Positions 9,121-24,650 of a DNA stretch of 43,846 nt are shown in pieces; position 1 is the stretch's first letter; the number at the start of each line of letters is the position of its first letter. The translations under genes were made by a program, and so were the position numbers. The notes beneath the pieces were generated by a model, which saw only the letters and a list, made by a program, of their open reading frames with translations, was not told the origin of the DNA and searched no databases. This DNA comes from an uncultured bacterium (GTDB taxonomy: Bacteria > Vulcanimicrobiota > Vulcanimicrobiia > Vulcanimicrobiales > Vulcanimicrobiaceae), in NCBI GenBank assembly GCA_903829325.1, contig CAIKPM010000016.1, forward strand, positions 1 to 43,846. Reading direction: 5' to 3'.

Positions 9121-10070
9121 TAGGAATGCGTCGCAGACACCAAAGCAAAGGTTAAGGGTAGACCGCCAAGATGCGGATATATATCAGTCGCTGCATGCGC
9201 CTCAAGCACATAGTTTCCACCAAGCGAAATCCGCGCGGCAATTGTGCGCATCGCACTCGGGGTCGTCTCAGAGAGCGGCGTAGACAAGTAGAAAGGCAAT
9301 CCATGGGCGATTGCCTGAGCTGCCGCCGCTTGCGCCAATTGATTAATCACCAACTGGGGATTGACGCTCCCACCGCGGATGGGTAAAGATGCAACGACTT
9401 CGCCAGCCTGAAAAATACGCCGATCAGGTAGGCCCTGTAGTCGAAAATGAATGGGATCGTGTGGGAACAGATTTCGGTCAGCGACGGCTAAAATTAATAC
9501 GGGAGAAGTCAATAACGTCGGTTCAATATCGAGCAGAACTTCGTGCAACTTTGCTGCAACCGCCGGATCACTCGCGTGCTCGGTATTCGGGTGCAAAGCA
9601 CGGTTACCGAGAATACTCGGCCCGTAGGCGTGGTTGGCATTTTTGAGGGTCTGATCAAAAAAAGCAGCTAAAGCCTTATAGTGTTGTGATGGCGATTCGT
9701 TCGAACGTAAAATCAGCACCGCACCATACATCAAATCGCCACGATTAACCACCACATTTTCTTCGTGCGTGTGACGATCCAAGGCCGCAGCTTCATCCTG
9801 TAAAGCGATGATCCGCGCATTGAGCTCACCAAGGCGAAAAAATGCGGTTTTCACATAACTCGAAATCGCAATCGCAAAAATTGTCACGCTCAACGCAATC
9901 AGCATGCCGGTACCGATAGCAAAAATGGTCGATGTATGACGTGGGCGCAAACCGAACAACGAGAGACGCTTGCGCCCCACCACGTGCCCAACCCGGTCGC
10001 CAACATACGCAATCCCACCCGCTAAAAGCGAGATAAACACGACGACCAGAACGCCACCGAACATACCCAT
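9120..10070 (-). CDS. DUF3084 family membrane protein
   Basis: 316 aa. TM1 (VVVFISLLAGGIAYVGD) is followed by DRVGHVVGRKRLSLFGLRPRHTS, the hallmark of DUF3084 proteins (DRxGxxxGKKRLxxFGLRPRxTS). TM2 (IFAIGTGMLIALSVTIFAIA) is next, then a short coiled coil (RLGELNARIIALQDEAAAL) and a large extracytoplasmic part. The family is known mainly from cyanobacteria, deinococci and related lineages; its function is unknown. It lies between an LptF/G-type permease and the YqgF gene with 1-nt overlaps on both sides (TAATG), suggesting a link with cell-envelope work. Confidence 0.8.
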   Translation of the reverse strand: MGMFGGVLVVVFISLLAGGIAYVGDRVGHVVGRKRLSLFGLRPRHTSTIFAIGTGMLIALSVTIFAIAISSYVKTAFFRLGELNARIIALQDEAAALDRHTHEENVVVNRGDLMYGAVLILRSNESPSQHYKALAAFFDQTLKNANHAYGPSILGNRALHPNTEHASDPAVAAKLHEVLLDIEPTLLTSPVLILAVADRNLFPHDPIHFRLQGLPDRRIFQAGEVVASLPIRGGSVNPQLVINQLAQAAAAQAIAHGLPFYLSTPLSETTPSAMRTIAARISLGGNYVLEAHAATDIYPHLGGLPLTFALVSATHS

Positions 10071-11161
10071 TATGCGCGCGCCGCCCGCCGCAAGAACGTT
10101 GCTCCAATCAGCGTGAACAGTAAATTCGGGGTCCAGGCACAGTAGACCGAGATTGGCGGCAATGCCGTAGCAACGCTACGAGCAATCGTCAAAATAATAT
10201 AGTAGATAAAGACAATCGCAACCGCTAGGCCAAATCCAACACTGGTACCACTCCCTCGATTGGGCCGCAAACCAAAAGGCAAGGCAATCAACGTAAACAC
10301 AAGGCAGGCAAATGGCTGGGCTAACTTCGCATCGTATGCACTACGATATTTTCGCTGCTGCATATCGTTGAGTGTATTCGAGGTGAGAATATCATGAAGC
10401 TGCGCGCGACTCAATTCATCAGGATTATTATTCGAGGCACGCTGTAACAACCGGTTAGGATCTTCACCCAAATCAACTCGCAATTCGGGATCAATGCTCG
10501 AAATAGCCGTCCCATCTGGATCAAAATGATAGGTGCGCGCATTCAGAAAAGTCCAACGGTTCGCCTGGAATCGCGCCTGGCTACTAAAGATCACCTGCTG
10601 CGGAATATTCTTCGGATCGTACTGCAGAACGGTCACATTATGCAGAATCCCTGTTGCGGCGTCATAACCGGTGGCAGACGTAACCTGATGCCCGCCGCCA
10701 GGTAAAGGGGTTGCGAGATCGAGACTTGCGGCACTCATGCCAACGTGGCGAATCACATCATTTAATAAATACGCCGCCCGTTCTTGGGCAAAGGGCACGA
10801 GTAACTCTTGCAAGGCTAAGGAAAAGAGCGAGACGACAAAGCCCGTTACCAAGAGCGGGCGCACAATACGAATCAACCCAATTCCACCGGCCTTCATCGC
10901 CGTGAGTTCGCTTTCGCCGGAAAGCCGCTGCAACGCCAGCAACGTACCCAAAAGCAACGCCATCGGAATCACTAAAATAATGATTTGGGGCATTTGATAG
11001 AAAAAGTATTCGATGGCAGCCCACACAGGGGCATGATCGTCAGAAACGAGACGACTAATATTGAGAATATAGGTCGCAGCAAAAATCAGTGCAAACGCCG
11101 AGAGCCCAAACAACGATGGACCCACCAGCTCACTGACCAGATAGCGATCTAGGATCCGCAT
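10070..11161 (-). CDS. LptF/LptG (YjgP/YjgQ) family LPS export permease
   Basis: About 363 aa from ATG 11161, where GGAGG lies a few bases upstream and the protein begins MRILDRYLVSELVGPSLFG, the usual family start. Six TM helices are expected: three at the N-terminus (SLFGLSAFALIFAATYIL, IIILVIPMALLLGTLLAL, LLVTGFVVSLFSLALQ) and three at the C-terminus, around a periplasmic beta-jellyroll of about 170 residues. With LptB and LptC it forms the inner-membrane extractor that lifts LPS. Only one permease gene is here although LptF and LptG normally pair. It follows lptB by 10 nt. Confidence 0.85.
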   Translation of the reverse strand: MRILDRYLVSELVGPSLFGLSAFALIFAATYILNISRLVSDDHAPVWAAIEYFFYQMPQIIILVIPMALLLGTLLALQRLSGESELTAMKAGGIGLIRIVRPLLVTGFVVSLFSLALQELLVPFAQERAAYLLNDVIRHVGMSAASLDLATPLPGGGHQVTSATGYDAATGILHNVTVLQYDPKNIPQQVIFSSQARFQANRWTFLNARTYHFDPDGTAISSIDPELRVDLGEDPNRLLQRASNNNPDELSRAQLHDILTSNTLNDMQQRKYRSAYDAKLAQPFACLVFTLIALPFGLRPNRGSGTSVGFGLAVAIVFIYYIILTIARSVATALPPISVYCAWTPNLLFTLIGATFLRRAARA

Positions 11162-11171
11162 CGATCCTCCA

Positions 11172-11918
11172 TCAGAGCCGAAACCCTTCGCCGAGATAAA
11201 ACTGGCGCGCCAACGGATTGTCCATGACCTCTTGCGCAGAGCCAGACACAACGATTTCGCCATCATTCAAAATATATGCTCGATCAACGATAGCCAGGGT
11301 TTCGCGCACCTGATGATCGGTAATCAAGACCCCGAGTCCGCGATCACGCAATTGTCTGATCATCACCTGAATGTCGGCGACAGCAATCGGATCAATCCCC
11401 GTAAAGGGCTCATCCAAGAGTAAAAACGCTGGGTCGGTTGCAATCGCCCGGGCAATTTCGACACGTCGACGCTCCCCACCAGATAGACTGTCACCACGCG
11501 CATCGATAAAGCGGCTTAAGCCAAATTCTTCCAACAACAGCGGCAAGCGGCGCTCTTGCTCCGCAGCGGGAACTCCGTTCATTTCCCAAATTAAACGAAT
11601 ATTGTCACCGACAGATAATTTGCGGAAAATAGAATTTTCCTGAGCAAGATATCCCACCCCGTGGCGTGCCCGTTGGTACATTGGCTCATGGGTTAACTCG
11701 ATCTCGCGTTCTGGCATCTGCAAAACGACTTTGCCACTGTCGGGTTTGACGAGCCCGACGACCATATAAAACGTCGTGGTTTTTCCAGCGCCATTGGGCC
11801 CGAGTAAACCGACAACCTCGCCTTTGTGTACCTGCGCATTCACCGCATGAACAACCCTGCGTTGACCGTAGGACTTGCATAGTTGAGTTAGATGAATCGC
11901 ATGCGTCATTGTTGTCAT
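11172..11918 (-). CDS. lptB: LptB, ATPase of the LPS exporter
   Basis: 248 aa, the usual LptB length. Walker A GPNGAGKTT, a Q-loop in YLAQENSIFRKLSV, ABC signature LSGGERRRVEIARAIA, Walker B FLLLDEPFTGIDPIAV and the H-loop VLITDHQVRETL are all present. The SIFRKLSV, FTGIDPIAV and HQVRET stretches are specific to LptB among ABC ATPases. It powers extraction of LPS from the inner membrane. The start overlaps the stop of lptC (ATGA at 11915-11918), and the permease follows after 10 nt. Confidence 0.93.
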   Translation of the reverse strand: MTTMTHAIHLTQLCKSYGQRRVVHAVNAQVHKGEVVGLLGPNGAGKTTTFYMVVGLVKPDSGKVVLQMPEREIELTHEPMYQRARHGVGYLAQENSIFRKLSVGDNIRLIWEMNGVPAAEQERRLPLLLEEFGLSRFIDARGDSLSGGERRRVEIARAIATDPAFLLLDEPFTGIDPIAVADIQVMIRQLRDRGLGVLITDHQVRETLAIVDRAYILNDGEIVVSGSAQEVMDNPLARQFYLGEGFRL

Positions 11919-12463
11919 CCGTCCAGATGCACACTGCGCAAAGTAATATTGCCCGTCAGATCGCTACCGTGTAGCGTATCACCTTGCTTGGTTTGCATCA
12001 TCACATGCCCCCACCCATGAATGCGTTGGTTACGCTGATCGTACAAAAAGTGATCGCAGGTTAAGCGCGAGCCATCAGCAGTCAAGACATCAACTGCTTC
12101 GTGCAGTTGCACGCTCTTCGTCGCCCCATCGACATCTGCCGTTCGCGCCGTCGCTCGCATCCGCCCACCATCGAGAGAAAAGAACGTTACCACCGGCTGA
12201 CTGAAATGCGACGTGTAGTTACCATCGCTACCACGACGCGAATCGTTCGTATCCGCCAGAATGCGGTAAGCCATGCGGCCATGCTCGACCACCACGATAC
12301 TCACTGGCGTCGTGCGATTGCGCTGCGCCTGTACGGTGATCGCACCGAGCGTGGGCGCAGGAGTGCTCATACGCGGCAAAGGCACACGCGCTTGCTTTGG
12401 GGGCGAATGTGGTGAACAGCGCACCAACGCAAGGCAGAGCATCAACGCGAGAACCGTTTTCAC
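11915..12463 (-). CDS. lptC: LptC-like periplasmic LPS transport protein
   Basis: About 182 aa from GTG 12463, which overlaps the TGA of the ligase gene (GTGA) and has GGAAGAGGGAG upstream; the longer frame extends into the ligase gene and is artefactual. An N-terminal hydrophobic segment (TVLALMLCLALVRC) is followed by a Pro-rich linker and then a beta-rich domain (GRMRATARTADVD, VDVLTADGSRLTCDHFLYD, GWGHVMMQTKQGDTLHGSDL), the repeating pattern of LptC/OstA jellyrolls. Arg before Cys is unusual for a lipobox, so lipidation is doubtful. Context directly upstream of lptB supports LptC over LptA. Confidence 0.8.
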   Translation of the reverse strand: MKTVLALMLCLALVRCSPHSPPKQARVPLPRMSTPAPTLGAITVQAQRNRTTPVSIVVVEHGRMAYRILADTNDSRRGSDGNYTSHFSQPVVTFFSLDGGRMRATARTADVDGATKSVQLHEAVDVLTADGSRLTCDHFLYDQRNQRIHGWGHVMMQTKQGDTLHGSDLTGNITLRSVHLDG

Positions 12464-13677
12464 GCTGCTCCCTCTTCCAGAGCGACTAAGGTCATCCCCA
12501 TAAACGGAATCCACAGACCCAGAAAAAGAATCTGGACAACGTCGAGCATGCTCTGCAGCCAGGTCGCCGTGAAGCCGATCAGGAGTGCAACTGCCATACC
12601 GCGCGCCCGGGGGCTGGCGTGGCGATAGCGTTCGATTACCATCTGCCCAAACGTCCACCACAAGAACAGCAACGCAAGCAGGCCCAAGATGCCACTTTCA
12701 ACCCACGTCGTGAGTAAAAAATTGTGCGCGTGGAAGGCCAGCGGCTCCCCATCCGGGCGCTTGACCAACGGATAGATCCGCGCAAAACCGCCGGGTCCAA
12801 CTCCCCAGAGGGGAAACAGTTCTCCCGCTCGCCACGCCGCCTGCCAGATTGAGAAGCGATTGAAATTCTCAGCGGGATTATGATGCAAATTGATCAGCTG
12901 ACGCAGCTGACTGAGTAAGACCAGCAGCCCGACGCCCACCCAAGGCAACCAACGCGAGCGAAGCGCAACCAAAGCCACGACGGTCGCCAGCAGCAAACCG
13001 GCTAGCCCCGCACGGGAAAAAGTTGCAAGCAACGCGGCGAGGTTGAGGCCGGCAACAATCCACGCCCCCATCCGCAAGCTAGAGCTCCGTCCCCAACAAG
13101 CAACGCCCACGCTGTAGGGAAGCAGCATCCCCAAATATCCCGCAAGCTCACCCGGCACCACAAAGCTGCCGATCGCTCGGCCATTGCCAACCGTGAACAA
13201 GCCCGCGGGCACACGTAGTATCCAGCACGCTAATGCAACCAGCGAACCCACGCCGCTCGAGAGCAGCAAACTGCTCGCCATCGCTTGCGCAATCCGGGCA
13301 TCCGCACCCCAACACCTCACCGCACACGTCCCGATGCACGTACAGAGCGTGATCGCGAAAAAGAGTGCACCCACAATCGGCACCAGCCCCAGGCACGTCG
13401 CGAACGCAAGACTTGCCAAGTACACAAGCATTGCGCGGACGAGGCGATCTCGCAAGAGCGCACGGCCCTGTGTGCGCCAGAGCTCAACCGCCAACAAAGC
13501 CGTCAGCCCAGCCACAATCAAGAGCACGCCGAGCGCCACGGGTGGCGCGAGTAAGGAATATCCCGGCGCAGCGATCGGCAGCAGGGCAATAAATGCTGGG
13601 TAAAGAGGCATGCCCGCCCAGAGCACGGCCAAGACCCAAGCGATCCACCAAGCCGGATGTTGCGCGCGAACGCTCAT
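12460..13677 (-). CDS. O-antigen ligase / Wzy-type polymerase-like membrane protein
   Basis: 405 aa, strongly hydrophobic with about ten TM segments. In the second half FHAHNFLLTTWVESGILGLLALLFLWW matches the Wzy_C pattern (HNxxLxxxxExGxxGLxxxL), where the His-containing periplasmic loop is functionally important in WaaL ligases. It could join polymer to lipid A-core (WaaL) or polymerise repeat units (Wzy); the lipid A/Lpt setting favours the ligase. It overlaps both neighbours by 4 nt (ATGA with the LpxB-related gene upstream, GTGA with lptC downstream). Confidence 0.78.
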   Translation of the reverse strand: MSVRAQHPAWWIAWVLAVLWAGMPLYPAFIALLPIAAPGYSLLAPPVALGVLLIVAGLTALLAVELWRTQGRALLRDRLVRAMLVYLASLAFATCLGLVPIVGALFFAITLCTCIGTCAVRCWGADARIAQAMASSLLLSSGVGSLVALACWILRVPAGLFTVGNGRAIGSFVVPGELAGYLGMLLPYSVGVACWGRSSSLRMGAWIVAGLNLAALLATFSRAGLAGLLLATVVALVALRSRWLPWVGVGLLVLLSQLRQLINLHHNPAENFNRFSIWQAAWRAGELFPLWGVGPGGFARIYPLVKRPDGEPLAFHAHNFLLTTWVESGILGLLALLFLWWTFGQMVIERYRHASPRARGMAVALLIGFTATWLQSMLDVVQILFLGLWIPFMGMTLVALEEGAA

Positions 13678-14840
13678 GTCTTTAGAGCGGTTGCATCGAA
13701 GCGCTCTAAGCGATTTGCGAGCACTTCAGCAATCGCGGCAGCTCCTCCGGGCGCTCCCATCCGTTCGCGCCCAACGGCACTCATGTGTTGCCGCACCGCG
13801 GGCGAGTCAATCAATTCCAGCACCCCAGCAGAAGCTGTCGGGACGTCGTCGCGCACGACGCGGAGCGCCTCACCCAACAGACGCCCCTGGCGCATGCGAT
13901 ACCAACCGAGACGCTCGGAAGCTGCTAACGCCACCACCGGTACACCCGCCGCCGCTGCAGCTTCATTTCCGGGACCCGCCTGGCCCACGACAATCGTCGC
14001 CAGGCGCAGCAGCGGAGCCAGTTCTCCGGTACAACCATGCAAAACAACGTCGCCAGCGTGTGCTCGAAACGCGAAAACCTCATCATCGGTACGCACATCC
14101 CAACCATCGTTGCGCAGTAAGCGTAGCACTTCAGCCACCGAGAGCGTCGGCGCAACCGATAAGACCGCCGAGTACTCTGGGCGTACCGCCAAAACGCTGC
14201 GCGCAACCGCCGCTAACTTGACGGCATCCGCATACGCGGAGTGACGACTGCCCGGAAAAAGCGCCAGCATCGGCGGATCGGGCGCGGGCAAAGGCTCGCC
14301 GACATCCAGCAAATCAACAATGACATTGCCTGGGGCAACAGCGGGAACTCCCCGCGCGCGCAACCATTCGGCGGTCGGTTCGTCACGCACAAACACATCT
14401 TGAGCACGACGCAAAACCAAACGTTCGACGGGACCGTAGGGCGCGACATACAAGCTTTTCGCGGTGCCGACAAAGGTCAGCGGACGCTTAGCGTAACGCG
14501 CCATTAACGCAGCGTAGACATCACCAACCGCAACGACTTGGGCATATTCTGCGCCGGCCTGGCGCAAGAAACGCCGTTGTGCAGACCAAAGCGCAACAAA
14601 ACCGGCACGAATATCTCCAGCTAAAGCGGGCAAATTGACCATCGCAACAAGCCCGCCGCTTGGCATAGCGCGGCGAGGGCCAACATCACGAAAACCCGGT
14701 GGTGAAGGCTTATCGCCAACCAAGGCGAGGTGATCGGTCTGGCAGTCGGGGACACGATGGCGCAATTCACTCGCCAAACGCGCAGCGATTGCGGCTTCAC
14801 CATGGCCATTACTTACAAAAAGGACCCGCTGTTGGGGCAT
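13674..14840 (-). CDS. LpxB-related putative glycosyltransferase (lipid-A-disaccharide synthase-related)
   Basis: 388 aa. It starts QRVLFVSNGHGEAAIAARLA, continues with LVGDKPSPPGF, and later has VVAVGDVYAALMAR, VFVRDEPTAEWLRARGV, VDLLDVGEPLPAPDPPMLALFPGSRHSAYADAV and VVGQAGPGNEAAAAAGVPVVA. The GSR and G-EAAAAG signatures are those of GT-B sugar transferases related to LpxB. A family of such lipid-A-disaccharide-synthase-related proteins is known in cyanobacteria with undetermined substrate. A true lpxB is two genes upstream, so this copy probably has a different acceptor. Stop and next start overlap (ATGA). Confidence 0.75.
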   Translation of the reverse strand: MPQQRVLFVSNGHGEAAIAARLASELRHRVPDCQTDHLALVGDKPSPPGFRDVGPRRAMPSGGLVAMVNLPALAGDIRAGFVALWSAQRRFLRQAGAEYAQVVAVGDVYAALMARYAKRPLTFVGTAKSLYVAPYGPVERLVLRRAQDVFVRDEPTAEWLRARGVPAVAPGNVIVDLLDVGEPLPAPDPPMLALFPGSRHSAYADAVKLAAVARSVLAVRPEYSAVLSVAPTLSVAEVLRLLRNDGWDVRTDDEVFAFRAHAGDVVLHGCTGELAPLLRLATIVVGQAGPGNEAAAAAGVPVVALAASERLGWYRMRQGRLLGEALRVVRDDVPTASAGVLELIDSPAVRQHMSAVGRERMGAPGGAAAIAEVLANRLERFDATALKT

Positions 14841-14843
14841 GTA

Positions 14844-15584
14844 TCATTCACCTTCCGCATGCTGCGGCAATAAAGGCAGTAACTGCGCCTGCGCGATGCG
14901 CAAGCGTTGTGCATCTTCATCAAAAGTCAGGTCTGTAGCTGAAACATACTTTCCGTACGGACCGGCATGTATAATTGGCACCGACCCGACATACTCCGGT
15001 TGCAGCAAAGTATCGTGGCTATGCCCCCCGAGAATCAAATCAAGGCGCGGCACAGCTCGGGCGAGACGACGATCAGCCGCTAAGCCGAGATGCGAAAGCG
15101 CGACCAACCCGTCGCCTGGTGGGATGCGCTCAGCAATCTCGCATGCCACTTCGATCGGATCCCGAAAACGCCAGCCGAGGAACCGTTCCCAAAGACTCTG
15201 CTCAGGATACTGGACCACCAGTAAACCAAAAAAATGGAGCCTGCGCTGCCCTTCCCACGGGATCGAATGCATCGCCTGAAACGGCAACGGGCGACCAAAC
15301 GTATCCAGCAAGTTTGCGCATACAACCGGGCGCTGCACCGACGCGAACCGAGCACGCATACAAGCGTACAGGTAATGAAACTCGCGATTGCCGAGCGCGC
15401 TCAAGGCATAGCCCGCTTCAGCCATCTCAGCGAGAATCGGCTCGTGGCGATGATACACCGTTTGGCTGCCGCGCAAGGCATCTCCGCAATCGATCAAATA
15501 GCCAGGATCCCGTGCCTGCAACGCTTGCAAGCGGGGCGCAAATCCGCGATGATTGTGCAGATCGCTGGTATGATACAGGCGCAT
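14844..15584 (-). CDS. Calcineurin-like metallophosphoesterase; candidate for the LpxH step
   Basis: 246 aa. The metallophosphoesterase ligand set is complete: D8-x-H10 (SDLH), D35 in IDCGDAL, N66 in GNREF (65-69), H165 in SHLG and GHSH at 187-190. Most relatives have GNHE/D at the third block; here it is GNRE, and LpxH proteins have GNRD. The overall beginning (YHTSDLHNHRGFAPRLQAL) resembles 5'-nucleotidase/UshA-like enzymes, but no signal peptide or second domain is present. It sits 3 nt after lpxB and 3 nt before the LpxB-related gene. No other LpxH, LpxI or LpxG is in the window. LpxH-type hydrolysis of UDP-diacylglucosamine is an inference; a generic nucleotide phosphatase is the alternative. 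Confidence 0.7.
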   Translation of the reverse strand: MRLYHTSDLHNHRGFAPRLQALQARDPGYLIDCGDALRGSQTVYHRHEPILAEMAEAGYALSALGNREFHYLYACMRARFASVQRPVVCANLLDTFGRPLPFQAMHSIPWEGQRRLHFFGLLVVQYPEQSLWERFLGWRFRDPIEVACEIAERIPPGDGLVALSHLGLAADRRLARAVPRLDLILGGHSHDTLLQPEYVGSVPIIHAGPYGKYVSATDLTFDEDAQRLRIAQAQLLPLLPQHAEGE

Positions 15585-15587
15585 CCG

Positions 15588-16685
15588 CTATGCTCCCGTG
15601 GGCGCAAAAAGCTGCAGCGCGTACTCAGCCCAGGCCCGTAAAGCCCCACGACCTCCTAAGGCAGAGCGCAGAGCATGCAATCCCTGCAACTGCGCTTGCG
15701 GGTCTTCGCGTAGTCCAAGCAACTGCTCGGCGATAGCCTGCGGAGTTGCCGCATCCTGCAAGAGTTCGGGCACGACCGCTTGGTCGAGAACCAGATTCGG
15801 TAACGTAACGTATTTGCCACGATACATCCGCCGGGCAATCCAAGCATTCAGCCGAGATAACGCATAGATTGCAACCGTCGGCACCTCGAGCAACGCAGCC
15901 TCCAGCACCGCAGTTCCTGAGGCAACGCAAGCAACGTCCGCCCAAGCAAGCCAGGTGCGGGCGTCGCGTTCCACGGCCACACCAGCGGGCAGACGTTCAC
16001 GAAACACTCGCTCCAAGCGACTGTCTGCAGCAACCACCACACACTCGGCTTGCGGCAATTGCTCTTTGAGCAACGCAATCGCCGCGAGCATCCGCGGAAG
16101 GTGCTGGCAAATTTCTTGCTCACGACTACCCGGCAGAAAAACAAAACGCCCGTGAGCGGAACGTTCGTGCGGCAATCGCGGCAAAATCGTCGAAGCTAAG
16201 GGATGCCCAAAATATCTGACGGGTAGCCCTAAGGACGCATAAAAATCACGCTGATGACCGAACGCAACCAGCGGTACGCTCAACTCGGCGACACAGCGCG
16301 CCACCTTCGGACGATCTAACCACGCAGATGGCGGAAACCCATACAACAGGGGCCCCGTGTAGCCCGCTTGCCGGAGTGCTAGTGCGAAGCGCACATGGAA
16401 TGCCCCGAAATCCAAGAGCACAATGCCGTCGGGCGGATCGGCCACGACACGCCGCACTAAACGCTGCATGACCCGCCATAATCTTGGGACATTCTTGAGA
16501 GCGGTAAACGGGCCAAGCGTCGCCCAGCCCGTGGTGTCTTGTACGATAGTGAAGCCGGCTTGACGCATCCGCTCGCCGCCGACGCCTTCAAAGCTCAGAC
16601 CAGGTTGCAACGCCCGCAGCTCCCCCGCGAGCGCAACTGCGCAAAGCTCACCGGAAGGCTCGCCCGTGCTGCAAAAAATACGCAA
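15588..16685 (-). CDS. lpxB: LpxB, lipid-A-disaccharide synthase
   Basis: 365 aa, close to the family norm. It begins MRIFCSTGEPSGELCAVALA (family start with xGExSGD/E), followed by FEGVGGERMRQAGF, GIVLLDFGAFHVRFA, FGHPLAS, FVFLPGSREQEI and CVASGTAVLEAALLEVPTVAIY, all LpxB signatures. The enzyme condenses UDP-2,3-diacylglucosamine with lipid X at the inner membrane. The start is TTG at 16685, the only position that gives the canonical N-terminus. It is 5 nt after lpxA; the phosphoesterase follows after 3 nt. Confidence 0.92.
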   Translation of the reverse strand: MRIFCSTGEPSGELCAVALAGELRALQPGLSFEGVGGERMRQAGFTIVQDTTGWATLGPFTALKNVPRLWRVMQRLVRRVVADPPDGIVLLDFGAFHVRFALALRQAGYTGPLLYGFPPSAWLDRPKVARCVAELSVPLVAFGHQRDFYASLGLPVRYFGHPLASTILPRLPHERSAHGRFVFLPGSREQEICQHLPRMLAAIALLKEQLPQAECVVVAADSRLERVFRERLPAGVAVERDARTWLAWADVACVASGTAVLEAALLEVPTVAIYALSRLNAWIARRMYRGKYVTLPNLVLDQAVVPELLQDAATPQAIAEQLLGLREDPQAQLQGLHALRSALGGRGALRAWAEYALQLFAPTGA

Positions 16686-16690
16686 GCGCG

Positions 16691-17461
16691 TTATTTCACA
16701 ATACCGCGCTCAGAACTTGCCTCGATAAAGCTCACTAGTTCTTTACCCGCAACCGTTTTCACCAGATCGCGCAACACCGTCAACGCCTGGGAAACATTGC
16801 GATCAGAGTGATACAAAATCTTGAAGCAAGCCTTGAGTTCAGCCATTTCATCTGCGGGGAAATTTGCTCTACGCAAACCCACACTATTGAGACCAAATAC
16901 CTTGGGGGGGTTGCCTTCTACCAGAAAAAACGGCGGAACATCGCGTACGAGGCGACTCATCCCCCCCACAAACGAATGACGACCGATGCGCACAAATTGG
17001 TGCACCCCGGTTGCGCCGCCGATCGTGGCGTTGTCTTCCACCCGCACATGACCGGCCAGTTGCGCAAGATTCGACATCGTCACAAAGTTGCCAACTTCGC
17101 AATTATGCGCAATATGCACATACGCTAACAGTAAGCAATCGGTACCGATACTGGTCACAGCATCTTTTCCGGTGCCACGTTGGACGCTCACGTATTCTCG
17201 CAATACGGTGCGCGCACCAACCGTCGTGTAACACACCTCGCCCGGAACCGCTTTGCGATCCTGAGACGGGGTACCAACGGTCGCAAAGGGGTGAATCGTC
17301 ACATCTTCAGCGATCGTCGTACGACCATTCACGACGACGTGGCCTAAGAGGCGGGTTCGTGCACCGATACGCACATGTTCGCCGACAAGGCAGAACGGAC
17401 CGATCTCGGCATCGCTCGCAATCTCGGCATCGGGGTGGACTATCGCGGTCGGATGAATCAT
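16691..17461 (-). CDS. lpxA: LpxA, UDP-GlcNAc acyltransferase
   Basis: 256 aa. It starts MIHPTAIVHPDAEIASDAEI, a left-handed beta-helix of hexapeptide repeats. The central LLAYVHIAHNCEVGN carries the catalytic His region and GATGVHQFVRIGRHSFVGG is specific to LpxA. The C-terminal helical part (NSVGLRRANFPADEMAELKA) matches the family's trimer tail. It carries out the first acylation of lipid A synthesis. It lies 6 nt after fabZ and immediately before lpxB, the order known from cyanobacteria and many other diderms. Confidence 0.95.
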   Translation of the reverse strand: MIHPTAIVHPDAEIASDAEIGPFCLVGEHVRIGARTRLLGHVVVNGRTTIAEDVTIHPFATVGTPSQDRKAVPGEVCYTTVGARTVLREYVSVQRGTGKDAVTSIGTDCLLLAYVHIAHNCEVGNFVTMSNLAQLAGHVRVEDNATIGGATGVHQFVRIGRHSFVGGMSRLVRDVPPFFLVEGNPPKVFGLNSVGLRRANFPADEMAELKACFKILYHSDRNVSQALTVLRDLVKTVAGKELVSFIEASSERGIVK

Positions 17462-17467
17462 CGTCGT

Positions 17468-17962
17468 TTACTCGTGCAAAATCGCAGCATCGAGCGCGAA
17501 GTTCCCAGCCACGCTCACCACCGAAAACATCAGGTCGGTTGCACAGGCAAGCTCGTTCTCTACCCGGGCCTCAGCGTGGACCCAAAACATACTGCCCCTC
17601 GAACGAGTCATCACTGCCTCCATCATCAGACGATCGCCCGGAATAACCGGCCGTCGAAATTTCGTTTTGTCTACACCAACCAAATACGGCACCGTGCGGG
17701 TATGCTCGCCTGGTTGCAGCACCGCTACCCCGGCCAATTGCGCCATCGCTTCCAGCATGTACACGCCGGGGAAAATTGGATTCCCAGGAAAATGGCCCAT
17801 CACGAACGGCTCGTTGGCACTCACATTTTTGTAGCCCACAATGCGCTGGAAAGGTATCATTTCAAGAATGCGATCCACCAGCAGCAACGGATAGCGGTGC
17901 GGCAAGATCGTCATAATCTTGCGAATTTCTCGGTCTTCTGCGCTCAACTCGCTCATCTTCAT
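17468..17962 (-). CDS. fabZ: FabZ, 3-hydroxyacyl-ACP dehydratase
   Basis: 164 aa. The signatures are ILPHRYPLLLVDRIL and VMGHFPGNPIFPGVYMLEAM, giving the catalytic pair His57 and Glu71. It dehydrates 3-hydroxyacyl-ACP in fatty acid elongation, using the same hydroxyacyl pool that LpxA and LpxD draw on. The start overlaps the lpxC stop (ATGA at 17959-17962). The first residues MKMSEL also offer an in-frame ATG two codons later. lpxC and fabZ stay separate genes here, unlike the fused lpxC-fabZ of Bacteroidetes. Confidence 0.95.
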   Translation of the reverse strand: MKMSELSAEDREIRKIMTILPHRYPLLLVDRILEMIPFQRIVGYKNVSANEPFVMGHFPGNPIFPGVYMLEAMAQLAGVAVLQPGEHTRTVPYLVGVDKTKFRRPVIPGDRLMMEAVMTRSRGSMFWVHAEARVENELACATDLMFSVVSVAGNFALDAAILHE

Positions 17963-18783
17963 GCCATCCCTTGCAAAGCTAACTCACGCAGCGCAGCAAC
18001 CGCACGCGCATGCAACGCGTGACCACTCTTATGCGCGACAATCCGCCCCCGCAAGCCCGCCCCCACTAACGCAAAATCACCGAGCAAATCAAGTGCTTTG
18101 TGACGCACAGGCTCATTGGCAACGCGCAGCGGTGCAAGTGGTCCATCGGGCCCGAACACCACCGCATTATCCAGAGAGCCACCAAGCGCTAAACCGCGAC
18201 TGCGCAGGGCTTCCAATTCATCAAGATAGCCGAAAGTACGCGCCGGGGCAATTTCTGCGCAATAGTGCTCGGCGGTCAACACCGCAGCCACCCGCTGTTG
18301 TCCAATCGGAGGCCGAAAATCAATCGTGACCTCATATTCGTACGCTTGAGCGGGAAAGCACGATATATGCTTTTCTCCATCAGTAAAATGCAACTCCGGC
18401 AGCTCAATTTCGTAGCGAGCAACGCCACTGCCCACCAGCCCAACACGCTGAAATTCCTGAACAAACGGTAAAGAGCTTCCATCCAATACCGGCACCTCAG
18501 GGCCGGTGACGGTAATCTCGGCATTATCGATCCCCACGCCCACGAGTGCTGAAAGCAAATGCTCAACGGTAGAAACCGAGGCACCGTCACGCCCAAGCAC
18601 CGTCGCGCGCGACGTGTCAACCACGTACTCACCCAAAGCTGGTACGATGACACCCTCTCCCAGCACAAAACGAATTCCGCTCTGGGGGGGAGCCGGCGCA
18701 ACAAGCACGCGCGCGAATTGACCTGTATGCAAGCCAACACCCTCGAAGGCCACTACATCACCCAGCGTCTGCTGCTCGTTCAA
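17959..18783 (-). CDS. lpxC: LpxC, UDP-3-O-acyl-GlcNAc deacetylase
   Basis: 274 aa, slightly short compared with the E. coli protein. The zinc and catalytic residues are in place: E74-H75 in STVEHLLSAL, H228 and D232 in VRHKALDLLGD, and H255 in SGHALHA. The N-terminal FEGVGLHTGQ is also typical. It catalyses the committed step of lipid A synthesis, between LpxA and LpxD. It overlaps lpxD by 4 nt (ATGA) and fabZ by 4 nt, so lpxD-lpxC-fabZ are translationally coupled. Confidence 0.95.
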   Translation of the reverse strand: MNEQQTLGDVVAFEGVGLHTGQFARVLVAPAPPQSGIRFVLGEGVIVPALGEYVVDTSRATVLGRDGASVSTVEHLLSALVGVGIDNAEITVTGPEVPVLDGSSLPFVQEFQRVGLVGSGVARYEIELPELHFTDGEKHISCFPAQAYEYEVTIDFRPPIGQQRVAAVLTAEHYCAEIAPARTFGYLDELEALRSRGLALGGSLDNAVVFGPDGPLAPLRVANEPVRHKALDLLGDFALVGAGLRGRIVAHKSGHALHARAVAALRELALQGMA

Positions 18784-19811
18784 ACTTTTGCCTGCTCCTT
18801 CTCAAGGCTCGCTAGCCGAGCCATCAGGTTTGGGAGCTTTTTGAGCTGAACCTTCTGACGCAATTCGCTTCGATGATCTTGCGCTGGATTGCCACTGACC
18901 GTCATTCCAGGCGGCACACTGGCCCAGACTTTGGAGTTCCCAGCGACGCGCGCGCCGGAGCCAATTTCGATATGACCATTCACCGCGACGTCCCCGCCGA
19001 TCTGCACCCCATCACCAATTTTGGCTGAACCGGCAACGAGCGTTCCGCCAGCGATCACGGTCTTCGCACCGATCTGGACGTTGTGGCCAATCTGGACCTG
19101 ATTATCGATTTTGCTCTGGAAGCCAATTTTTGTCACCCCGGTTTGGGCGCGATCGACACAGGTATTCGCACCAATTTCGACCTCATCGCCCAACTCAACA
19201 ATCCCGATCTGCGGAATTTTGAGCAGGGTTCCGTCGACCGGCACATAGCCGAATCCATCGCTGCCGATCACAGCCCCCGCTTGCAAGATAACCCGATTGC
19301 CGAGAACGCATGCATCAGCGACCATCGCTCGGGGGTGCAAATGCGCATCCTCCCCGATGCGAACTCGCTCACCGATAATCACCCCAGCCTCAAGCACGCT
19401 ACGCTCACCAATTTTTGTACCAGCACCGATAACGACCAGTGGCCCGATATAGACGTCGACCCCGAGCACCGCGCTCGGATCAACCACCGCACTCGGGTGA
19501 CGATAGGGCCCAACATGGCGGGGCCGCTCAAACGATTGCAATAATTGCGCCAACGCCACGCGGGCAGACGGAACAACCACGACCGTTTTTTGTGGCTCGT
19601 GTCCATCGTCGAGCAAGCGCGCATCGACAAGAATCGCACTCGCGCGACTCGCATACGCAGCTTTCAGATAGCGCGCGTCGGTTGCAAAGGTGAGCGCACC
19701 ATCGCCCGCCTCCACAATAGCTGCAATCCGATTGATGCCTACGCTCGCGTCACCGCGCACTTCGCCCCCAATCCGCGCAGCCAAATCGCCCACACTGCCT
19801 AGGGCGCTCAT
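18780..19811 (-). CDS. lpxD: LpxD, UDP-3-O-acyl-glucosamine N-acyltransferase
   Basis: 343 aa. An N-terminal uridine-binding domain (LGSVGDLAARIGGEVRGD ... LTFATDARY) is followed by a long hexapeptide beta-helix (VIGERVRIGEDAHLHPRAMV, IGSDGFGYVP, IGANTCVDRAQTG, QIGHNVQIGAKTVIAGG). IGSDGFGY and the GHNVQIG stretch with its His are family markers. The C-terminal helices (LKKLPNLMARLASLEKE) form the trimer coiled coil. It adds the N-linked acyl chain of lipid A. It starts within the stop of the preceding OmpH-like gene (ATGA at 19808-19811). Confidence 0.95.
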   Translation of the reverse strand: MSALGSVGDLAARIGGEVRGDASVGINRIAAIVEAGDGALTFATDARYLKAAYASRASAILVDARLLDDGHEPQKTVVVVPSARVALAQLLQSFERPRHVGPYRHPSAVVDPSAVLGVDVYIGPLVVIGAGTKIGERSVLEAGVIIGERVRIGEDAHLHPRAMVADACVLGNRVILQAGAVIGSDGFGYVPVDGTLLKIPQIGIVELGDEVEIGANTCVDRAQTGVTKIGFQSKIDNQVQIGHNVQIGAKTVIAGGTLVAGSAKIGDGVQIGGDVAVNGHIEIGSGARVAGNSKVWASVPPGMTVSGNPAQDHRSELRQKVQLKKLPNLMARLASLEKEQAKV

Positions 19812-22352: not shown

Positions 22353-24650
22353 TTAGAAGCTTTGACCAATACCGAAGCTTGTATGCGTCCCACGACTGCC
22401 GCGGGCAAAGTCAAGCCGAATACTGCGGAAACCTAACTGCGGCAAATCGAAGCGTAAACCAAAGCCAGCATCACCGTGCCAGGTATACTGGCCGTAATTT
22501 ACCACATAGCCCGCGCTATCAACGCCATTTCCCGCCCCACGAATCCGGGTTGCACCTGATTCGGCGAACGTCGCAAGGCTAAAATGCTTATCGCTGGTTA
22601 AGGGAATACGCAATTCGCTCTGCAGCAGAATCACATCTGTACCATAAAAAACATCGTTGTAGCCACGCAACTGCTGGTCGGAAAACGTGTAGAGTTTATT
22701 CGAGGGAATCGCCCCGGTTGATTTGCCAATCATCCCATGAAACCCAATCGTATCAAGCTTTCCGATCGGATAAAACTTGAGCGCATCGAGTGTCGTAAGG
22801 CTGTAGACAAAATCAGACCCAAGTGAAGGTTCACTGAATTCATCGCTAATTTGAGCACGATACCCGCGTCGTGGATTAAACACATCGTCGCGCGTATCGG
22901 TAGCCAAACCAAAGGTCAAACTCCGCAGATTATAGCCACCCTCACCGATTGCCGCAATTGAGGGCGCTGAGACCCCGAGCGCTAAGGCGCCAGAAGTCGA
23001 CGTAGAGATGGCCCCATTCGTTGAGGGAAAATAGAACGGCGCAGGAACGCTAGCATTACTCGAGATGCGACTGATATTCGTGCCGACCGAAGCGGTCACA
23101 TAATCAGACAAACGCCGACCCAATGTTGCGGCAACGCCATCGTTACGAGCATTATACGTGGCAACCACCCCACCTAACGGGTTGCCATAAGGAATTAACT
23201 GAACACCGGTCCCGTTAATCGGGACATTGCTCAGCCCGGAACCCGGAATGCCAGGCAAATATGTGGGGTTATACGCGCCGGTTGTAGGGATGGGTGCGAC
23301 AGCGGTCGAGACGGTACCAGAGGTCGCATACACCGGATAATAATTTGTCTGGGTATCGAAAAAGATCGATCCGGATAAGCTATATTTTTGCGACTTCGGT
23401 GTATTTCCTAAGTAAGGCACTACGCCGTTTAACTCAACGCTAGAAACACGTGAACCGCGCTCAAACCGCACGCCGGCCGTATTGCCCGTACCATTGACAT
23501 TGCTTTCTGAATATCCCAGATTGCCGGTGAGCCCTTGACCAGTCAGGCCACCAGAATAGCCTGCTCCAATCGTCGCGGTTCCAGTTCGGGCTTCTTTGAC
23601 GGTCCAGTCGAGCACAACGTCTTGTGGACGTGTCGTATCCGGACTCGGCTTTGGCACTAAATCAACATGATCAAAAAATCCGAGATTATTGATCCGCTCG
23701 TAATCCCGTCGTAACCCAGACTGAGTGACAATGTCGCCTGCGTGCAAGCGTAGCACTCGGCGAATGACGTAATCGCGGGTCTTGGTATTGCCGCTAATCT
23801 GAACCGCGGCAACGCGAGCAACCGAAACGACATATTGCACGTCGGCGGTTTCCGTAGCGGGATCAACACTACCAGGCACGATCCCGGAAGAAAAATCGCC
23901 TAATTGGAGATCACGGCTTTGATAGAGCGCCTTGACGGCATCCTGATCCTTGGCGCGCGAAGCTTCCGAATAGATTGAACCAGGCCGGACACTCACTACA
24001 CGCGCAATGAGGCTACCCGGTAACACGGGATCAGAACTGGGCGCCAGCAGTACATGGCGAACCCGCAAGCCTTCAAGAATACGCAGCGAGAGGACCCCGG
24101 TTTTTTGATCGACATTGATATCAAGCACATGCGAAGGAACCTGACCCGCATAGCCAATTTTGTCGTAATAGGCGTTAATCTTGGCCACGTCTTGGCGGAC
24201 GGTGTTCGTGTTCAGGACTTGGCCGACCGCCGAATCCATCAAGGCGGCCAAGGTCTCGGGTGGGACTTCGCTATCGCCCTTGAAGGCAATCTTGCTAATC
24301 ACCGGATTCTCAATCACATGAAACGTGATCGCAACCCCATCGGAACGATGGCGAATCGTCGGCGCCACCTGATCGATAAAATATCCGCTTGCGAGGATAG
24401 TCCGCAGATCGTCGCGTAGCGCATCGGGATTAAACGGTCGCCCCACAGCGGTTCGCAGCGAGCTGACAATCTGATCACTCGGGATGTGCGCATTTCCCGA
24501 AACCGAGATCGATACCACGCGCGTCTCATGCGCACCGACCAAAACCGGCGCGAGCAGCATTGAGCCCATAATCATGAGCATAAAGAACGCCGACAAATCG
24601 CGTCTACGCGATACCATTACCTTACGACAGGCCTGAAATACACTCGACAA
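22353..24650 (-). CDS. bamA: BamA/Omp85 outer-membrane assembly factor
   Basis: 765 aa. A signal segment (FFMLMIMGSMLLAPVLVGAHE) is followed by POTRA domains, the clearest starting VVSISVSGNAHIPSDQI, ISKIAFKGDSEVPPETL and VAAVQISGNTKTRDYVI, with a less typical unit between the last two. A 16-strand type barrel follows, with DVFNPRRGYRAQISDEF and the loop-6 motif LRGY in QQLRGYNDVFYG. The protein ends in Phe (GIGQSF). It inserts barrels in the outer membrane. The TTG at 24650 has AAGGG about 8 nt before it; ATG 24617 is the alternative. It follows tamB by 11 nt and precedes the OmpH genes. Confidence 0.93.
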   Translation of the reverse strand: MSSVFQACRKVMVSRRRDLSAFFMLMIMGSMLLAPVLVGAHETRVVSISVSGNAHIPSDQIVSSLRTAVGRPFNPDALRDDLRTILASGYFIDQVAPTIRHRSDGVAITFHVIENPVISKIAFKGDSEVPPETLAALMDSAVGQVLNTNTVRQDVAKINAYYDKIGYAGQVPSHVLDINVDQKTGVLSLRILEGLRVRHVLLAPSSDPVLPGSLIARVVSVRPGSIYSEASRAKDQDAVKALYQSRDLQLGDFSSGIVPGSVDPATETADVQYVVSVARVAAVQISGNTKTRDYVIRRVLRLHAGDIVTQSGLRRDYERINNLGFFDHVDLVPKPSPDTTRPQDVVLDWTVKEARTGTATIGAGYSGGLTGQGLTGNLGYSESNVNGTGNTAGVRFERGSRVSSVELNGVVPYLGNTPKSQKYSLSGSIFFDTQTNYYPVYATSGTVSTAVAPIPTTGAYNPTYLPGIPGSGLSNVPINGTGVQLIPYGNPLGGVVATYNARNDGVAATLGRRLSDYVTASVGTNISRISSNASVPAPFYFPSTNGAISTSTSGALALGVSAPSIAAIGEGGYNLRSLTFGLATDTRDDVFNPRRGYRAQISDEFSEPSLGSDFVYSLTTLDALKFYPIGKLDTIGFHGMIGKSTGAIPSNKLYTFSDQQLRGYNDVFYGTDVILLQSELRIPLTSDKHFSLATFAESGATRIRGAGNGVDSAGYVVNYGQYTWHGDAGFGLRFDLPQLGFRSIRLDFARGSRGTHTSFGIGQSF

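Follow-up and report, generated by a model that had tools for sequence, protein, structure and literature searches.

A UshA-type metallophosphoesterase beside lpxB as a candidate for the missing lipid X step in Vulcanimicrobiota

The lipid A operon and its phosphoesterase gene

The window analysed here, a stretch of 43,846 nucleotides from contig CAIKPM010000016.1 (assembly GCA_903829325.1), belongs to an uncultured bacterium of Candidatus Eremiobacterota (Vulcanimicrobiota) whose genome is 96.4% complete. Within a complete operon for lipid A synthesis and lipopolysaccharide (LPS) export it carries a gene for a metallophosphoesterase, which we regard as the best candidate for the phylum's missing lipid X step, the hydrolysis of uridine diphosphate (UDP)-2,3-diacylglucosamine, an activity that we infer. 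This step, named after LpxH, has three known solutions (LpxH, LpxI and LpxG) that are unrelated or distantly related to one another. To our knowledge, the enzyme responsible has yet to be recognised in several groups that make lipid A, among them cyanobacteria and Dictyoglomi.

The open reading frame (ORF) starts 3 nucleotides past the lpxB stop and ends 3 nucleotides ahead of the next ORF, which encodes the LpxB-related protein TIGR03492, or LpxB2 (Table 1). The first strand (MRLYHTSDLH) stands at the very start of its protein, which has neither an N-terminal extension nor a signal peptide and carries the metal-ligand motifs D8-x-H10, G34-D35, G65-N66-R67-E68, H165 and G-H188-S-H190. All seven metal ligands (D8, H10, D35, N66, H165, H188 and H190) are present, and they are invariant or nearly so in the family. 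PF00149 is the only Pfam family matched (30.7 bits), and the NCBIfam matches are to SoxB/UshA-type models, far under their cut-offs; the protein is a single domain, without the C-terminal substrate domain of the UshA type. An earlier note on this DNA had already reported the position of the gene, its length, the complete set of ligands and a third block reading GNREF, and these particulars all hold.

The operon order is TamB, BamA, three OmpH-like proteins, LpxD, LpxC, FabZ, LpxA, LpxB, the phosphoesterase, TIGR03492, an O-antigen ligase-type protein, LptC, LptB, LptF/G and a DUF3084 protein.

Table 1. Positions of the phosphoesterase gene and its neighbours in the window
Feature	Positions	Strand	Remarks
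UshA-type metallophosphoesterase, 246 amino acids, candidate UDP-2,3-diacylglucosamine hydrolase	14844-15584	-	
GNRE motif codons (residues 65-68), Arg67 in place of the catalytic His of related enzymes	15381-15392	-	GNRE in 109/109 members; GNHE or GNHD in 11/11 paralogs
BamA/Omp85 (POTRA + Omp85)	22353-24650	-	
lpxD	18780-19811	-	
lpxC	17959-18783	-	
fabZ	17468-17962	-	
lpxA	16691-17461	-	
lpxB, lipid-A-disaccharide synthase	15588-16685	-	PF02684, E 3e-62
LpxB-related protein TIGR03492 (LpxB2), constant downstream neighbour	13674-14840	-	203 bits, just below cut-off 219
O-antigen ligase/Wzy_C-type membrane protein	12460-13677	-	
lptC	11915-12661	-	
lptB	11172-11918	-	
lptF/lptG permease	10070-11266	-	

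Family identity and the block-3 arginine

The earlier note had judged the protein to be closer to 5'-nucleotidase-type enzymes than to LpxH, and both sequence and predicted fold bear this out. Foldseek searches with an AlphaFold2 model (predicted local distance difference test score, pLDDT, 95.9) returned the catalytic domains of YunD (E 3e-17), UshA (5e-16) and CD73 as top matches, and the closest sequences are likewise of the 5'-nucleotidase/UshA/SoxB type. LpxH was absent among the sequence matches, and direct comparison with Escherichia coli LpxH gave a BLASTP E-value of 3.1 and an hhalign probability of 0.4 of 100. In a tree of 30 family members, 11 UshA-type paralogs from the same phylum and E. 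coli UshA, the members formed one clade apart from all UshA-type sequences (support 100/99), with a single change between His and Arg in the third block. The paralogs are 467-846 amino acids long and all keep the His, whereas none of the 109 family members departs from the Arg of GNRE; S40, E48, Y71, R79 and Y126 are further family-specific positions. Judged by sequence, tree and predicted fold, the protein is related to the catalytic domain of UshA and the 5'-nucleotidases, in a shortened form that has no signal peptide, and it is unrelated in sequence to LpxH.

Among metallophosphoesterases, the His-to-Arg change in block 3 has been described as confined to LpxH (PMC5016852, PMC3087551), in which Arg80 forms a bidentate salt bridge to the phosphate of lipid X, equivalent to the beta-phosphate of the substrate (PMC5016852). 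That an unrelated branch has the Arg fixed at this place, with lpxB adjacent and no LpxH in the phylum, is the strongest single hint to function. The GNR motif occurs in none of the source genome's other metallophosphoesterases, nor in ten from G008, a one-contig genome (3.5 megabases) of the same family.

UshA splits UDP-sugars into uridine monophosphate (UMP) and sugar-1-phosphate, analogously to the reaction proposed here, and the UshA, 5'-nucleotidase and SoxB enzymes share with the phosphoesterase its predicted fold and its best sequence matches; the phosphoesterase differs from UshA in lacking the C-terminal substrate domain and the signal peptide, in having Arg for the catalytic His, in its place in an LPS operon and in its separate clade. 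With the LpxH of beta- and gammaproteobacteria it has in common the metallophosphoesterase superfamily, the seven metal ligands, the block-3 Arg (GNRD in LpxH) and the proposed reaction, but it has no match to TIGR01854, no evident LpxH helical insertion and a place in another branch of the superfamily. LpxI catalyses the reaction proposed for the phosphoesterase, and its gene in alphaproteobacteria lies beside lpxA/lpxB, but its fold and family are unrelated; the phosphoesterase has no LpxI_C domain. LpxG of Chlamydia is also a metallophosphoesterase independently recruited to this step, yet it has an N-terminal transmembrane helix and the motifs GDxxDR...GNHD (PMC4807358), where the phosphoesterase has no N-terminal extension and reads GDALRG and GNREF.

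The LpxH step and gene linkage across the phylum

Neither LpxH (TIGR01854) nor LpxI (LpxI_C, PF06230) has a match in the source genome, and each profile was matched in 0 of 148 genomes sampled from Eremiobacterota/Vulcanimicrobiota, 85 of them near-complete. The four other PF00149 proteins of the source genome (YfcE-like, SbcD-like, TIGR00282/YmdB and PrpE/Pnkp-like) include no LpxG-like candidate, as judged by family and with no search using LpxG's own profile. The gap that the earlier note had seen in the window is therefore found again in the genome and, for LpxH and LpxI, in the phylum. LpxB (PF02684) is present in 141 of the 148 genomes, including every near-complete one (85/85). LpxK and the transferase for 3-deoxy-D-manno-octulosonic acid (Kdo) are essentially absent phylum-wide, while genes for LpxA, LpxC, LpxD, LpxB, LptB, LptC and LptF/G-type proteins stand together in the operon (10070-19811); these two absences leave the phylum with the same reduced LpxA-C-D-B route as cyanobacteria (PMC3087551). 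In the phylum's cultured member, Vulcanimicrobium alpinum, LPS covers the outer membrane and 3-hydroxy fatty acids are present (PMC9758169), which makes a real product of the lipid A type likely.

The phosphoesterase itself was matched in 141 of the 148 genomes (84 of the 85 near-complete) by a single-sequence search. Four genomes with weak scores in that search (G006, G020, G023 and G025) were ruled out as exceptions to its co-occurrence with lpxB when the family profile retrieved true orthologs adjoining TIGR03492. In G077, the one near-complete genome without a match, and in G115 and G130, lpxB is present and the contig ends inside or just after it; G102, G134, G141 and G143 have neither a match nor a detectable lpxB. 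The gene, whose co-occurrence with lpxB the earlier note had proposed to check in genomes lacking LpxH, LpxI and LpxG, is phylum-wide. Among 109 distinct loci, lpxB lies on the same strand within 250 nucleotides upstream in 83 and within 4 kilobases in 19 more. TIGR03492 adjoins the phosphoesterase downstream in 106, nine of these being listed at more than 150 nucleotides, which probably reflects partial matches of the partner gene; the remaining three loci are at contig ends.

A scan of contigs for the motif [AT]xGNREF[HN]Y, which is blind to variant motifs in other phyla, found at least 80 loci; those listed are titled Eremiobacterota or bear unspecific metagenome-assembled genome names, a few mislabels apart. 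The mislabels carry Bacillota, Burkholderiales or Armatimonadetes titles, and their coordinates coincide with genomes placed in Eremiobacterota/Vulcanimicrobiota. Plasmid searches with the phosphoesterase and LpxB2 returned ordinary 5'-nucleotidases or nothing, and we found no paper naming such a phosphoesterase family.

Gene content around lpxB varies in the phylum. In deeper families lpxB and the phosphoesterase are separated by an LmtA-like protein and a third protein of the LpxB type (L044:3268-5155, L043:1847-3651, L050:8421-10279). Elsewhere the LpxB ORF is 807-857 amino acids long (L141:6121-8541, L139:4524-7094, L140:7496-9943); in L141 and L139, the two that we compared, it is this third LpxB-like protein that the C-terminal half matches, and both ORFs are by this match fusions of two LpxB-type proteins. 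Deeper families also have, between fabZ and lpxA, a GnnA-like oxidoreductase of the Gfo/Idh/MocA type, akin to UDP-N-acetylglucosamine (UDP-GlcNAc) 3-dehydrogenase (L040:3894-4922, L044:7427-8659), hinting at an amide-linked (GlcN3N) lipid A.

Possible functions of the phosphoesterase

On balance, we think it probable that the phosphoesterase was recruited independently as a UDP-2,3-diacylglucosamine hydrolase and forms a fourth class beside LpxH, LpxI and LpxG, and nearly as probable that this class evolved from the UshA/5'-nucleotidase lineage, serves the whole phylum and reached the LpxH-signature Arg on its own. It would be a soluble, presumably cytoplasmic two-metal enzyme in which the metals activate a water molecule for attack on the alpha-phosphate of UDP-2,3-diacylglucosamine, Arg67 would grip the beta-phosphate in the manner of LpxH's Arg80, and the expected products would be UMP and lipid X, the latter then used by LpxB, the product of the gene just upstream. 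As a guess, the acyl chains could be held by a conserved aromatic stretch at about residues 125-140 (QYPxxSxWExxxGxRF).

Several points weigh against this assignment. Neither the sequence nor the secondary structure reveals an acyl-chain pocket, an LpxH-like helical insertion or an LpxG-like transmembrane helix. Cyanobacteria are also without LpxH and LpxI (PMC3087551), and a Synechococcus control genome matched neither profile; the LpxH step could also be performed by an unrelated hydrolase encoded elsewhere in the genome. The tightest linkage of the gene is to TIGR03492 rather than to lpxB, and TIGR03492 also matches in the Synechococcus control and in a Deinobacterium control; since the latter has no PF02684 LpxB match, TIGR03492 is not specific to lipid A. 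The fourth hydrolase type put forward in the earlier note, with its predicted activity, gains support from the distribution, the lpx linkage, the invariant Arg and the lack of an N-terminal extension or signal peptide, and it came through every computational test applied, among them the genome-level refutation tests of that note.

The linkage to TIGR03492 leads to the main rival, which we consider unlikely: that the phosphoesterase partners the glycosyltransferase-like LpxB2 on another glycolipid or sugar nucleotide, making its acceptor or trimming its product, with the LpxH step left to an unknown enzyme. The two genes are adjacent in nearly all loci and remain a pair where lpxB lies at another place or runs on the other strand, and the Deinobacterium control shows LpxB2 in a genome without LpxB. 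This explanation, however, assigns no enzyme to the LpxH step across a whole phylum and offers no reason for the LpxH-like Arg, and in most families the pair lies inside or near the lpx cluster.

Less probable still is a phosphatase that removes the 1-phosphate from lipid X or from the disaccharide of lipid A; the resulting lipid A would carry no phosphate, as has been reported for cyanobacteria, whose LPS is without phosphate (PMC3087551). The reduced route of the phylum, without LpxK and Kdo transferase, resembles theirs, but relatives of LmtA (lipid A 1-phosphate methyltransferase), scoring weakly at 47-63 bits, lie directly beside the gene in deeper families; such a neighbour suggests that the 1-phosphate is kept and makes a 1-phosphatase less likely. 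Related phosphomonoesterases, moreover, still have the catalytic His, which this family no longer has. About as improbable is that the phosphoesterase hydrolyses nucleotides or UDP-sugars for general salvage or housekeeping in the cytoplasm and is in the operon by chance: its nearest solved relatives are 5'-nucleotidases and its best fold match is YunD, but the LPS neighbourhood is constant over more than 15 families, a C-terminal nucleotide-binding domain is absent, and the family has lost the His that every nucleotidase-type paralog in the comparison retains.

If the phosphoesterase is indeed a UDP-2,3-diacylglucosamine hydrolase, it would provide a fourth solution to the LpxH step, one used by a whole phylum, and the independent appearance of the same Arg in a second superfamily branch would suggest that the chemistry of the substrate requires it. 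This hypothesis is open to a direct and simple complementation test. It bears on the question whether bacteria of this kind would escape antibiotics directed at LpxH, and on the workings of a reduced lipid A route that has neither LpxK nor Kdo transferase.
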